Notes under the pieces: model-generated
What the model was told of the DNA's origin: nothing
The model's input: only the letters and a program-made list of their open reading frames with translations
Databases searched by the model: none
Shown here: positions 1,442 to 14,821 of the stretch, piece after piece
How positions within the stretch are numbered: position 1 is the first letter of the stretch
Layout: the number at the start of each line of letters is the position of its first letter
Made by a program: the position numbers and the translations under genes
Assembly (NCBI RefSeq): GCF_002965065.1
Contig: NZ_PTRE01000032.1
Span: forward strand, 1 to 32,692
Direction of reading: 5' to 3'
DNA length: 32,692 nt
From: Escherichia sp. MOD1-EC7003
GTDB lineage: Bacteria > Pseudomonadota > Gammaproteobacteria > Enterobacterales > Enterobacteriaceae

Positions 1442-2342
1442 CCGAGCCTCCGGTCACGACGCTGTATTCGGTACAGAAAGACGCCTGCGTATTGTTGAGC
1501 ACGATGTCGGCCAGCGGTGCAGCCAGTTCGACACGCTGCACGCCTTCCACATGCAAAGCGGCATAAATGGCAGACAGACGGATGTCGCGCCCCAGCCGGT
1601 GCTGTGCCGTGATATACGCTTCCAGTTTTTTCACGGCGGCAGCGCGAATGGGTTCGCTTTCGGGACCAGGGTAAAGATACAGCGTGGCGTTTATCTGGTA
1701 TTCAACGATGGCGGCAGACTGCACGGTCACGCGGTCGGCCACCGGCCTGACGTCCTCGCCATTAAGGGCGTTACGCACCACGGCCAGCAGGTCTTCGGAT
1801 GCGACACCGTTATTTTCACGTGACAGCACAGAGATGGTGACGCAGGCCGGAGACGGACTGGTGACAGAGATATCCGCGACACGCCCGTCGGCACTGCGAC
1901 CATGATACTGATAGGCACCCACCGACCCGGCGACGCTTAAGCCCTCAAACGCCTGCTGAATACGCAGACGATAATCGGTGTCAGACTCCATCACTGCCGG
2001 TGTCGGCGGAATGGTCGAATCATCTGCCGGGGTGATAGTCAGGCGCGTGGTGTTGTAATTGGCACCAATCACATCAAGGTCATTACCGGCTGCACAGGCC
2101 AGCATCACCGCCCGTGCAGCCTCATTCACACGCTGACGCCAGATAAGCTCACGATAAGCATTTTCCTCCAGCAGTTTGACGAGAGGCTCAGATTCCAGCG
2201 TCAGGGTACGGGCGACCGCCTCCTGCTGGTCTTCCGGGTAAAGGGAAATCAGTGTCGCCTTGCGTTCGGCGAGAATGGTTTCAAAGTCCAGCTCCTCAAC
2301 CACATCCGGTGCGGGTAGCTGGTTCAGGTCGATAATCGGCAT
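1434..2342 (-). CDS. J: Baseplate protein gpJ
   Basis: 302 residues, the length of P2 gpJ. It belongs to the baseplate J / T4 gp6-like family, which forms the peripheral wedges of contractile-tail baseplates. The N-terminus PIIDLNQLPAPDVVEELDFE and the segment LACAAGNDLDVIGANYNTTR are typical of the family. It begins 4 bp after the W stop and overlaps I by 8 bp, within the V-W-J-I-H late transcription unit. Confidence 0.95.
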   Translation of the reverse strand: MPIIDLNQLPAPDVVEELDFETILAERKATLISLYPEDQQEAVARTLTLESEPLVKLLEENAYRELIWRQRVNEAARAVMLACAAGNDLDVIGANYNTTRLTITPADDSTIPPTPAVMESDTDYRLRIQQAFEGLSVAGSVGAYQYHGRSADGRVADISVTSPSPACVTISVLSRENNGVASEDLLAVVRNALNGEDVRPVADRVTVQSAAIVEYQINATLYLYPGPESEPIRAAAVKKLEAYITAQHRLGRDIRLSAIYAALHVEGVQRVELAAPLADIVLNNTQASFCTEYSVVTGGSDE

Positions 2343-2346
2343 GGTT

Positions 2347-2694
2347 TCAACTCACAGGGATGGTTAACGAAAGTGGCTGGCCGGTGTCGTTGTGCTGACC
2401 GGTTAATGTGACCGTCATTCGCCCGTCAAAACTGCGCTCAGTGGTGACGGATGACAGGGTGACGCGGGGTTCCCATTTCAGCACCGCCATGTAACAGGCA
2501 ACCTTAATCTGCAACTCAAGCGCCGGGGTCTGCGGCTGGTCAATCATTGACGCCAGCAACGAGCCGTAATCACGACGCATCACCCGTGAGCCGACCGGTG
2601 TGCGCAGGATATCGCCGATACTCTGGCTGATATGCTCAAGGTCAGTGACAGTCAGGCCATCACTGCGATTCATTCCAAGATAACGCGCTGTCAT
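2347..2694 (-). CDS. W: Baseplate wedge protein gpW (gp25-like)
   Basis: 115 residues, as in P2 gpW. It is a T4 gp25 / lysozyme-fold baseplate wedge family member without enzymatic function; the segment IGDILRTPVGSRVMRRDYGS is the usual family signature. It overlaps the end of V by 4 bp, so translation is coupled. It forms the inner baseplate with J and V. Confidence 0.95.
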   Translation of the reverse strand: MTARYLGMNRSDGLTVTDLEHISQSIGDILRTPVGSRVMRRDYGSLLASMIDQPQTPALELQIKVACYMAVLKWEPRVTLSSVTTERSFDGRMTVTLTGQHNDTGQPLSLTIPVS

Positions 2695-3326
2695 AGAGGA
2701 CTCCCGGTTGTGCCGCCGCTGTCGCCGGGGTGTTTATGGGTATGCAGTACTTTACCGTTTGATGAGAGTTCACCGCCGGTGTGTTCAATGTTGCCGCGCA
2801 TCGTCCCGCCCTTCTGCACTTCCAGCGTGCCGGTAATCAGCCTGTTGGTGCAGACCACCTCTGGTGTGTCCAGGGTGACGCGGGTTGATGCTTTCACCGT
2901 GACCACCGGCACCGTGGCAGTAACAGAATCAGAAGCCGTCACGCTGGCCGTTTTAATTCCGCTTACCGTGAGTGCACTGGTTTCGGGTTCATACTCAATC
3001 ACCGCCCCGTCAGGGAAACGGATATGCAGGGCATCCGCCGACGCAGACGGCGCGGGGTTATCACCGGAATAAATCCCCGGCAGAACGAACGCCGTGTCGA
3101 GTTCACCGCCCACGGCCAGAATCAGCACCTGTTCCCCCACGGAAGGTGCCCACCATGTGCGCGAACGTCCGGCACGATGGGTCAGCCACTGAAGCCAGTC
3201 GGTGCACATGCCGCCGGTCTGCACACGGCAGCGACTGGCGTTAAGGTCGGTTTCGACGATAATGCCGGGGCGTATCATGTTGCGCAGCGTGCGCGCGAGT
3301 TCCTGGATATTTGCGAGTGTTTTCAT
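2691..3326 (-). CDS. V: Baseplate spike protein gpV
   Basis: 211 residues from the ATG at 3326 (MKTLANIQELARTLRNMIRP), the same length as P2 gpV. An in-frame extension to a TTG at 3362 exists but has no support. gpV is the trimeric tail tip that pierces the outer membrane. Its extreme C-terminus carries the HTHKHPGD motif (His195, 197 and 199) whose H-x-H histidines bind iron at the tip in P2. There is no good Shine-Dalgarno directly upstream of the ATG (AGATCTT precedes it). This is where the accessory gene region begins, so the V leader seems to have been altered by the insertion. Confidence 0.94.
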   Translation of the reverse strand: MKTLANIQELARTLRNMIRPGIIVETDLNASRCRVQTGGMCTDWLQWLTHRAGRSRTWWAPSVGEQVLILAVGGELDTAFVLPGIYSGDNPAPSASADALHIRFPDGAVIEYEPETSALTVSGIKTASVTASDSVTATVPVVTVKASTRVTLDTPEVVCTNRLITGTLEVQKGGTMRGNIEHTGGELSSNGKVLHTHKHPGDSGGTTGSPL

Positions 3327-3383
3327 AAGATCTAGCATGCTGCTGAGAACTGATGAGAACAATAAAAGAGTGTTTTTCTAAGG

Positions 3384-3416
3384 TTGACACAACACTCCAT
3401 TTGAAGTGAATATAAT
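3384..3416 (+). promoter_or_regulatory. Promoter-like hexamers upstream of the RelA/SpoT-domain gene
   Basis: TTGACA at 3384-3389 and TATAAT at 3411-3416 are both exact consensus hexamers, but the spacer is 21 bp, longer than the usual 16-18. A TG lies two bases upstream of TATAAT, so the -10 might work as an extended-type element. It points toward the + strand gene at 3460 and away from V. No phage operator or late-activator site was recognised here, which suggests constitutive expression in the lysogen. Confidence 0.45.
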
Positions 3417-3459
3417 GATTACTTAACTGGCAAAAAAACATCCTCACTAATTGGAGCCA

Positions 3460-4551
3460 ATGGATACACGCATGTCAGACATTCTAATTACTTATGATGA
3501 ACGGAAAGATAAATTTGAATCCTATGCCCTTACTCTTAAATCGTTATTAACCACGTTAATTCGCAATGAAAAAATTTCAATTCACTCACTAGAATCAAGA
3601 GTTAAAACAAAAAAAAGCCTTGAAGGCAAGATTAATAAAAAGGGAAAATACAAGTCTATAGATGATATTACTGATATCGTTGGTATCAGGATCATCACAC
3701 ATTATGCTGATGATGTTGATAAGATAGCTGCTATAGTTGAAAAGGAGTTCACCATTGACCAAGAGAACTCTATTGATAAAAGAACCTCAATTGCGCCTGA
3801 TAAATTTGGTTACTTATCACTTCATTATATAGTAACTTTAAGCTCAACCAGAACAAACTTAAAAGAATATGAAGTATATAAAAATATCAAAGCCGAATTA
3901 CAAATACGATCAATCCTTCAGCATGCCTGGGCTGAAATTGAACACGACATTGGTTATAAGTCGGCCACAGGACTGCCTAATGAAATAAGAAGATACTTTT
4001 CACGCTTAGCTGGTCTTTTAGAAATGGCCGATGATGAATTTATTAAAATCAGAAAAAAGATTTCTGAACGGCAGAAAGAGGTTGCAAAAGAACTAGAGCA
4101 AGGAACTAGTGATTCAGTTTTAGATATTTTCACTTTGGATGAATTCTTAAACACAAGTCGAATTATGAGTGAACTTTCAGAAGAGATAAAAGAAAAAACA
4201 GGAATCACAGTACATGGCCGATACAAGGATAAAGATTTGGGATACCTACTAAATAGTTTAAAGCTAGCCAACATAACTACAATAGAACAGCTCAATCAAA
4301 AACTCTCACAAATGAAAAAGCAGATCGTAGATAGAATATTCTGCTTCGGAGAACTATTTATTGATTATTGCAGAGAAACCCCCATGCCAAAAGAAGTTCT
4401 TTTGAGTTATTTATGTCAAATTATCGTTGCGTTTCAAAACTCACCTTCGTTAGAATCTGAATTTAATAACAAAGCAGGTTTAAATCTGAAAAACAGCGAT
4501 ATCTCCGATTTTTTCTCGAATATAAGAGAAAACATAAGCACACAACCTTAG
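3460..4551 (+). CDS. RelA/SpoT-domain nucleotidyltransferase, candidate anti-phage toxSAS/CapRel-like protein
   Basis: 363 residues from the ATG at 3460; GGAG at 3453-3456 lies only 3 bp upstream, so the ATG at 3472 or a TTG at 3451 are alternatives. Residues below are numbered from the TTG (366 aa). Residues ~45-170 are a RelA/SpoT (p)ppGpp-synthetase fold: basic stretch SRVKTKKSLEGKINKKGKYK (49-68), metal-binding Asp in DITDIVGIR (72-80), FGYLSLHY (119-126) with the base-stacking Tyr, and catalytic Glu in KAELQIRSILQHAWAEIEHD (148-166). No HD hydrolase domain, zinc-finger, TGS or ACT domain is present. The C-terminal ~190 residues are probably helical and not recognised; they could autoinhibit or sense infection. 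The gene is strikingly AT-rich, lies opposite to its neighbours S and V, and is absent from P2 itself. Known toxic small alarmone synthetases make (p)ppApp/(p)ppGpp or pyrophosphorylate tRNA; which applies here is unknown. Confidence 0.85.
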   Translation: MDTRMSDILITYDERKDKFESYALTLKSLLTTLIRNEKISIHSLESRVKTKKSLEGKINKKGKYKSIDDITDIVGIRIITHYADDVDKIAAIVEKEFTIDQENSIDKRTSIAPDKFGYLSLHYIVTLSSTRTNLKEYEVYKNIKAELQIRSILQHAWAEIEHDIGYKSATGLPNEIRRYFSRLAGLLEMADDEFIKIRKKISERQKEVAKELEQGTSDSVLDIFTLDEFLNTSRIMSELSEEIKEKTGITVHGRYKDKDLGYLLNSLKLANITTIEQLNQKLSQMKKQIVDRIFCFGELFIDYCRETPMPKEVLLSYLCQIIVAFQNSPSLESEFNNKAGLNLKNSDISDFFSNIRENISTQP

Positions 4552-4580
4552 CTTTAGTTTTAAAGTATTCTAACAGAAGA

Positions 4581-4606
4581 CTGCTGCCGATAAGCACCGG
4601 CAGCAG
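4581..4606. terminator. GC-rich hairpin between convergent genes
   Basis: CTGCTGCCG (4581-4589) and CGGCAGCAG (4598-4606) are perfect 9-bp arms around an 8-nt loop. It lies between the convergent stops of the RelA/SpoT gene (4551, +) and S (4632, -). On the minus strand it is followed by TCTTCTGTTAG, a weak U-rich tail; on the plus strand by CGATGAGG. It therefore best fits termination of late transcripts leaving S, and protects or separates the accessory gene. Confidence 0.5.
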
Positions 4607-4631: not shown

Positions 4632-5084
4632 CTAACGATCGAGGTGAGTCAGGATAATCTCTTCAATCATCTGCACATCCTCACCGGTAAAGCCGAGCAG
4701 AGGACGCGCCGGATAATCAATTTTCTTACCGTCTTTCCGGGTTTCTTCCGACAGACCGAACTGATGCACACTGGCGATTTTCGGTGACTTTCCGCCGTAA
4801 AACTCCATTGATGCCTGTTCCGGGCTGGCGCGGATATGCAAAAAACGACTGGTGATAAGTTTCGCAAACATTTTTCGCTTAACGCGACCGGTCTTTTTTC
4901 TGGCGCTCTGCTGCTGGCGTGGCGCGTAGGGGGTGCCGTCCGGGGCTTTCTGTGCCATCACCCGACGCTGCTGACTCTGCCGCAGACGTTTCGCCAGTTC
5001 GGCACTCAGTCGCCGACGCCCTGACGGTGACAGCGATTCAATAAGTCCGGTCAGCCGGTCTTCAAAACGCTTAAACTCATTCAT
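4632..5084 (-). CDS. S: Tail completion protein gpS
   Basis: 150 residues, as in P2 gpS. It is a phage virion morphogenesis protein needed to complete the tail and join it to the head. It is rich in basic residues (RRRLSAELAKRLRQSQQRRV near residues 23-42). It overlaps the end of R by 8 bp and is the last gene of the long O-to-S late operon; the accessory gene lies immediately downstream on the other strand. Confidence 0.94.
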   Translation of the reverse strand: MNEFKRFEDRLTGLIESLSPSGRRRLSAELAKRLRQSQQRRVMAQKAPDGTPYAPRQQQSARKKTGRVKRKMFAKLITSRFLHIRASPEQASMEFYGGKSPKIASVHQFGLSEETRKDGKKIDYPARPLLGFTGEDVQMIEEIILTHLDR

Positions 5085-14218: not shown

Positions 14219-14821
14219 TCACCCCATTTTAACGAGGTGGCTCATTTTTATAGCTGTTACAGAGTCTTCATAATGAGGCACATCTACAAGAAGAAGTTCT
14301 TCATTCCCGGCAAGAGAAACAATGTGCTTTAACAGTAGAGTTTCAATTCTTGATAAATACTCTGGAACTTTTTTATGAAACCCCAGCGAGTTTTCCCTAA
14401 CCCGATATGGGTTCCTTACGTGAATATGTTTTGAGCATTCATCATATAGCTTGATAAACTGTTTTTTCGTCAAAAAACCTCCCGTTAGTTTCGTCCAGCC
14501 CGTTTTGGTTACTCCTGATATTGGTACTGGATAAAAGTTAGGGTTTATCTTTTCCAACTCTTTAAATATATTCTTCGCCTTCCATACACCATCAATCTTC
14601 TTTGTAACCTTCTCGTATGCTTTTTCATGTGAAATTAGAGATGAAAATGCAATGAGCTCTAGTAGCTTCCTAAGCTGCAACGCCTCCATTTCAATTAACA
14701 CTTGAAAATAAATGCCATCAATCCTTCCAGATGATAAAGCATGAAGTGTTTCAAGTCGCTTTTGACATTCAAACATTATCTTTAGATATTTTTGTCTTTT
14801 TTTCTCATTCATTAATAACAT
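14219..14821 (-). CDS. Unrecognised AT-rich accessory protein in the tin/old locus
   Basis: 200 residues, MLLMNEKKRQKYLKIMFECQ. I do not recognise the family. No signal peptide or membrane segment; mostly charged and probably helical for residues 1-90 (QKRLETLHAL, EMEALQLRKLLELIAFSSLI). A conspicuous central segment, LYDECSKHIHVRNPYRVREN (125-144), precedes LGFH149. R142 and H149 are spaced as R-x6-H, which could be a HEPN-type RNase motif, but that is speculation. The gene is clearly more AT-rich than the flanking phage genes, has its own terminator, and occupies the place where P2 carries tin and old, both phage-exclusion genes. By position it is a candidate defence or lysogenic-conversion gene. 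The ATG at 14812 is an alternative start; neither has a strong ribosome site. Confidence 0.75.
   Translation of the reverse strand: MLLMNEKKRQKYLKIMFECQKRLETLHALSSGRIDGIYFQVLIEMEALQLRKLLELIAFSSLISHEKAYEKVTKKIDGVWKAKNIFKELEKINPNFYPVPISGVTKTGWTKLTGGFLTKKQFIKLYDECSKHIHVRNPYRVRENSLGFHKKVPEYLSRIETLLLKHIVSLAGNEELLLVDVPHYEDSVTAIKMSHLVKMG

Follow-up and report, generated by a model that had tools for sequence, protein, structure and literature searches.

A putative sensor-fused alarmone synthetase at the S–V slot of a P2-like Escherichia prophage

What might a prophage achieve with an alarmone-synthesizing enzyme of the RelA/SpoT homologue (RSH) type lodged between two of its structural genes? The question is raised by a 32,692-bp stretch of DNA (hereafter the window) from Escherichia sp. 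MOD1-EC7003 (NCBI RefSeq assembly GCF_002965065.1, contig NZ_PTRE01000032.1), which carries a P2-like prophage adjoining cpxP, cpxRA, sodA and rhaT (names read from Pfam matches) and, between the prophage genes S and V, a single gene with a RelA/SpoT domain. The reading favored here, to which we assign a probability of about 0.58, is that this gene encodes a one-protein, sensor-fused alarmone synthetase with an anti-phage role for the lysogen. Computation supports it as follows: the active site is intact; no antitoxin gene lies alongside; the C-terminal fold, as predicted, is not that of CapRel; fast replacement change is limited to the C-terminal half; and the slot also houses known and candidate defence genes. 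The gene is real and intact, its C-terminal part is probably a fused sensor and its slot is one that also takes defence genes.

The gene and its two domains

The initial annotation described an open reading frame (ORF) at positions 3451–4551 of the (+) strand, with 366 codons counted from TTG 3451. The frame is present, but its beginning needs revision: the protein is most likely one of 359 residues that starts at ATG 3472 (MSDILITY...), because RefSeq places the start of the E. coli MS7163 copy at the equivalent codon and because a start codon also occupies this position in the nearest phage relatives, L102–L106 (L numbers designate loci of this study). The gene for the proposed sensor-fused small alarmone synthetase would accordingly span 3472..4551 (+), with TTG 3451 and ATG 3460 as in-frame upstream alternatives. 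As had been stated, it is a single AT-rich gene, with a guanine-plus-cytosine (GC) content of 33.1% vs. 57.3% in the flanking stretches, and it lies on the strand opposite to S and V. A motif scan of an 84,980-species genome collection returned 388 candidate stretches, 380 of which encode relatives (the best 80 were kept), and since most of the ORFs read from them span 320–386 residues, the frame is not a chance ORF and reads as a real, intact gene.

The N-terminal half appears to be an intact alarmone synthetase (SYNTH) domain (residues 1–200; 3472..4071, +). It matches Pfam RelA_SpoT with E = 1.7e-21, and the only other Pfam matches of the protein at E ≤ 1, DUF2680 and a coiled-coil, both fall under the cut-off; the protein is therefore without hydrolase, TGS or ACT domain, in agreement with the earlier claim that the hydrolase and the regulatory domains of RelA/SpoT are absent. 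The Asp, Tyr and Glu positions of RSH enzymes, D68 (3673–3675), Y114 (3811–3813) and E142 (3895–3897), numbered from ATG 3472, are identical in 104/104 aligned sequences, window included. This alignment was drawn from 130 usable sequences of at least 315 residues, reduced to 106 below 80% identity and, after removal of L160–L162, to 103 plus the window. Most of its rows were collected through motif scans (LQHxWAE, WAExxHD or QxRxxLQH), so that identity at motif positions is partly by construction; the three residues fall outside these motifs, and they are also identical in all eight members of a set collected without motif patterns. By sequence and by structure alike, the best match of residues 1–200 is RelQ/RelP (SAS1/SAS2; 5dec, 5ded, 6ewz and 2be3). 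RelQ and RelP are oligomers that make guanosine tetra- and pentaphosphate, (p)ppGpp. With a SYNTH domain that keeps its catalytic residues and no hydrolase, TGS or ACT domain, the window protein has the features of a small alarmone synthetase. It differs from RelQ/RelP, chains of 209–255 residues that consist of the SYNTH domain alone, in having about 150 further residues, in being prophage cargo and in scoring 72.8 bits, below the cut-off of 320, against the NCBIfam equivalog YjbM (GTP diphosphokinase).

These further residues are confidently predicted to form an all-helical domain (residues 205–359; 4084..4548, +), which is proposed as the inhibitor and sensor of the enzyme. AlphaFold2 gives a two-domain model of the full protein with a mean predicted local distance difference test (pLDDT) score of 94.3 and a predicted template modelling (pTM) score of 0.85, and a model of the C-terminal domain alone, computed from 80 of the 104 aligned sequences, with a pLDDT of 93.8 and a pTM of 0.89; the models have no strand of at least three residues after residue 147. 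The C-terminal part had been described as belonging to no recognized family, and indeed its last 152 residues match no Pfam family at E ≤ 0.01 and a fold search with the predicted domain found no solved relative. Comparing the two halves separately thus led from the N-terminal half to RelQ/RelP rather than to CapRel, and from the C-terminal half to no solved structure.

CapRel was the model invoked for a C-terminus acting as built-in inhibitor and phage sensor. This RSH defence system is likewise a single polypeptide (7ztb) with an N-terminal synthetase-type domain, whose C-terminal domain, the least conserved region, is both inhibitor and sensor (PMC9712102; here and below, papers are cited for the sections consulted). 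The mode of action of the window protein probably resembles that of CapRel in outline, and the likeness ends at this general logic: its C-terminal domain is predicted to be helical and lacks CapRel's pseudo-zinc-finger with its beta-sheet; the YXXY neutralization motif of CapRel is missing from its C-terminal part, although 45 of the 104 aligned sequences have a YXXY there (31 at one common column); and its catalytic domain is nearer to RelQ/RelP by sequence and structure. That the gene encodes a divergent CapRel, i.e., a fused toxic small alarmone synthetase (toxSAS) restrained by a pseudo-zinc-finger and acting through tRNA pyrophosphorylation, is thus quite improbable. CapRel pyrophosphorylates the 3′-CCA end of tRNA upon release by a phage protein, and it can itself be phage-encoded, as in SJ46.

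No antitoxin gene adjoins the window gene, as the initial annotation had noted: the S–V interval holds no second likely gene, and no neighbour family recurs in more than four of 78 genome-contig loci (three genes on each side, BLASTP 1e-6). The gene thereby departs from two-gene toxSAS systems, defined by an adjacent antitoxin gene, and from FaRel2/ATfaRel2 and Tas1/Tis1, in which a separate protein, antitoxin or immunity protein, restrains the enzyme (PMC11782079). An enzyme fused to its own inhibitor might also suit a self-contained addiction module that stabilizes the prophage and does not fight phages, and one relative sits on a 3.5-kb ColRNAI plasmid of Klebsiella with just three other annotated genes. 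Post-segregational killing would be hard to obtain in this way, because one polypeptide with both activities allows no differential decay on loss, and this explanation is scarcely credible.

Unequal change in the two halves

A sensor engaged in an arms race with phages would be expected to change fast, and the C-terminal part does. Between the window and its S–V orthologues L102 and L104–L107, identity is 69–83% in the N-terminal part and 29–53% in the C-terminal part, and it falls to 55–60% and 19–20%, respectively, for L108 and L109. Within E. coli, 12 of the 14 complete genomes with the gene were fetched; the 11 intact copies, the window and the IMG/VR locus L001 gave 13 sequences and eight alleles (the broken copy and the E. 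coli matches H5 and H9 were left out of the count). Among these alleles the N-terminal part has eight silent changes and one replacement, a ratio of replacement to silent polymorphism per site (pN/pS) of 0.03, vs. three silent changes and 14 replacements in the C-terminal part (pN/pS 1.18; Fisher P = 0.0008, in a test that treats changes as independent). The P value is the same for half boundaries from 170 to 215 and becomes 0.004 at 220; six of the 14 C-terminal replacements lie within residues 295–304. Over longer times, the C-terminal part of the window and L106 has a ratio of replacement to silent divergence (dN/dS) of 0.14, at a dS of 2.36 that is near saturation, and the part is therefore not simply free to vary. 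Such a pattern agrees with a sensor role in an arms race.

The same figures could be claimed for an uncontrolled or decaying moron, in which the enzyme may work but the C-terminal half is under relaxed constraint and without a specific role. The pN/pS of 1.18 would agree with such decay, as would the rarity of the gene (14/5,426 complete E. coli genomes) and the copy annotated as broken in NZ_CP062865.1 (L324:18331-19251), which, among complete E. coli genomes, comes closest to the window (99.6% DNA identity); the prophage around it has a truncated portal gene next to an IS66-like element. Against decay stand the strong constraint on the catalytic half (pN/pS 0.03), a C-terminal domain of similar length across phyla with a confident predicted fold from 80 sequences, and the grouping of 12 S–V copies in one clade (see below), so that we consider it improbable.

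The S–V slot and its cargo

The gene was said to sit at a variable spot of P2, which points to defence. In the window, V, encoding a baseplate assembly protein, occupies 2691..3326 (−) from its RefSeq start (the ORF opens at 3362), and S, encoding a tail completion or virion morphogenesis protein, occupies 4632..5084 (−). Between them a swapped-in segment of 1,271 bp and 33.9% GC (3336..4606) stands where the commonest empty site has the final 32 of its 60 spacer bases. Altogether 223 loci were examined (62 from an RSH motif scan of viral contigs, 159 from scans for V and S, plus L001 and L020); S and V were resolved with their interval in 169, and the 157 of these that the scans for V and S contributed represent 131 distinct contigs by name. 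Contents were sorted by interval length and checked against protein clusters; because the scans favour S and V genes akin to those in the window, the resulting frequencies are not population estimates. The slot is empty (60–76 bp) in 94 of the 131 contigs and filled in 37 by about eight kinds of insert: a 261-residue membrane-type protein (n = 16), a 357-residue membrane-type protein (n = 8), a protein of 247–268 residues with an RX4H motif like that of HEPN RNases (n = 4), HNH-like proteins (n = 3), AAA or AAA-TIR proteins (n = 2), short inserts (n = 2), Pycsar (n = 1) and the RSH gene (n = 1), the membrane-type, RX4H/HEPN and HNH labels being our own reading and some copies being shortened ORFs. 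The Pycsar cyclase and membrane effector (PycC and PycTM; L233, genes 1507–2043 and 2021–3406) match PADLOC at 1.3e-128 and 7.6e-29, and the two AAA or AAA-TIR proteins (L178, 1901–3424; L212, 2153–3394) match the PADLOC candidate PDC-S59. S–V is thus a single-slot swap site that receives a known and a candidate defence system, in keeping with the earlier claim, and the RSH gene sits as a moron would, where other phages have a short spacer or other cargo. Earlier work had counted the spot among three moron regions (PMC6823313, PMC3091744). The published P2 defence loci are the hotspot between A and Q (PMC9122126) and a second one that holds fun (PMC9519451); S–V is not named as a defence hotspot in the consulted parts of these two papers.

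The residence of the gene at this slot is inferred to be long. The gene occurs with its flanks in 14 of 5,426 complete E. coli genomes and adjoins S and V in all 14, the next best match listed covering just 7% of the query. RSH genes also adjoin V in P2-like phages that share no more than 59–84% V protein identity with the window (L108 and L065/L124 show the V side alone, their contigs stopping short of S). In a tree of 151 catalytic domains, which left out L002, L101, L124, L034, L113, L158 and identical rows, 12 of the 13 S–V rows form one clade (100/87; the bootstrap value is unsettled), two of them near-identical E. coli-type copies, and L159 has a separate origin. A single S–V clade together with RSH genes beside V in diverged phages would mean that the gene stayed at, or kept returning to, the slot.

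Relatives, weighing and proposed mechanism

Beyond P2-like phages, relatives come from many phyla and keep a C-terminal domain of similar length; they occur in many genomes of one genus, Desulfosporosinus, and, at E ≤ 1e-15, in 15 of 394 sampled genomes of the order of the window, its own counted. One lies on a Bacteroides plasmid bearing phage capsid genes. Two database families already contain this type: phrog_9640, listed as of unknown function, matches the window protein over its full length (3.5e-197) and the S–V relatives L106 and L104 over nearly theirs, and PDC-S33, only a candidate in PADLOC, is matched by 104/104 aligned sequences at E ≤ 1e-5. The name PDC-S33 was not found in the main texts of the open-licence literature searched, nor did a search of open-licence papers find any on the window protein or its family as a tested defence system. 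A published parallel is RelAP1 of the P1-like phage P1M114, also a phage-encoded RSH-type synthetase without RelA/SpoT regulatory domains at a phage spot of varying content, in this case mat–lxc of P1 rather than a P2 locus (PMC10865808).

Several observations weigh against a defence role. The match of the window protein to PDC-S33 (2.5e-16) covers profile positions 48–255 of 349, mainly the catalytic part. Relatives on genome contigs have no obvious defence-island setting: their first neighbours are varied ordinary genes, and among 130 loci scanned with no control set the commonest PADLOC families (reverse transcriptase and GajB-type helicase) were represented by two proteins each. A same-strand gene lies within 60 bp upstream in 12 and downstream in five of the 78 genome-contig loci, so that some may be in operons. 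At the slot itself, the RSH gene was found in only one of the 131 contigs, and five proteins representing the other four kinds of cargo had no PADLOC match at 0.01. A pN/pS near 1 from as few as eight alleles can mean relaxed constraint, unpurged variants or recombination; the annotation of one copy out of the 12 fetched from E. coli marks it as broken; and expression of RelAP1, likened to the window protein by description and not by sequence, caused no fitness loss (PMC10865808).

Some of these points would suit a constitutive or stress-responsive small alarmone synthetase with no defence role, which raises basal (p)ppGpp in the lysogen and benefits the phage through a shift in growth, persistence or prophage induction. 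The RelQ-like catalytic domain, the scattered relatives lacking an obvious defence-island pattern, with many in Desulfosporosinus, and similar ideas put forward for RelAP1 (PMC10865808) all lend it weight. By itself, however, it leaves unexplained both the fast replacement in the C-terminal half beside a constrained catalytic half and the company that the gene keeps at S–V, and we regard it as rather unlikely.

Under the favored reading, that of a sensor-fused synthetase with an anti-phage role, the prophage gene would be a lysogenic-conversion defence gene making one protein, whose all-helical C-terminal domain would keep its RelQ-like SYNTH domain inactive. On infection by a rival phage, the C-terminal domain would recognize a phage product or a phage-caused change in the host and free the enzyme. 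The alarmone then made would most likely be (p)ppGpp, because of the likeness to RelQ/RelP, with tRNA or ATP acceptors as alternatives; it would arrest growth and translation, and few phages would leave the infected cell. A broader proposal, that such proteins make up another class of alarmone immunity in a single protein, independent of CapRel and spread over many phyla, which joins a RelQ-type synthetase to a hypervariable all-helical phage sensor and acts through regulated (p)ppGpp and not tRNA modification, is tentative and may well not hold.

Should the favored reading be true, immunity by fusions of alarmone enzyme and phage sensor would extend beyond CapRel to a related enzyme fold that bears an unrelated sensor, and (p)ppGpp itself would become testable as an abortive-infection signal. 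The P2 S–V slot would likewise be a place to seek more defence genes, its inserts being mostly without known function. S–V as a moron region and this type of protein as PDC-S33 were known already; the census of the swap site, the single S–V clade and the contrast between N- and C-terminal parts in silent and replacement changes are new.

Minor observations concern related genes and other slots. L008–L014, from other families of Enterobacterales, form a distinct subgroup of RSH proteins (344–364 residues; 100/100 clade) with a C-terminal part of their own, and the member searched, L008, has the RelP-type YwaC as its best PDB match. A Yersinia hibernica plasmid (L323:1325-3825) has a shorter RelA/SpoT-domain gene directly 3′ of another gene, an operon-like pair with a reverse transcriptase and a DNA methylase nearby, and two further relatives, L034:4998-6053 and L113:897-1976, each read as two adjacent ORF pieces and not as one gene. 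In the window, a 200-residue ORF without Pfam match at 1e-5 (14219–14821, −) lies in the known defence hotspot of P2, here in an AT-rich stretch between the portal gene Q and the replication gene A. The mat–lxc interval of phage P1 (L325:3544-9750), where relAP1 is placed by PMC10865808, holds the EcoP1 restriction-modification genes and is thus another phage slot common to a defence system and an RSH gene. Finally, five single AT-rich S–V genes without a PADLOC match at 0.01 (L318:4028-4810, L280:1713-2783, L188:2677-3417, L252:4170-4973 and L169:2677-3429), which represent the two membrane-type proteins, the RX4H (HEPN-like) protein and the HNH-like protein of the slot, are candidates for further defence genes.
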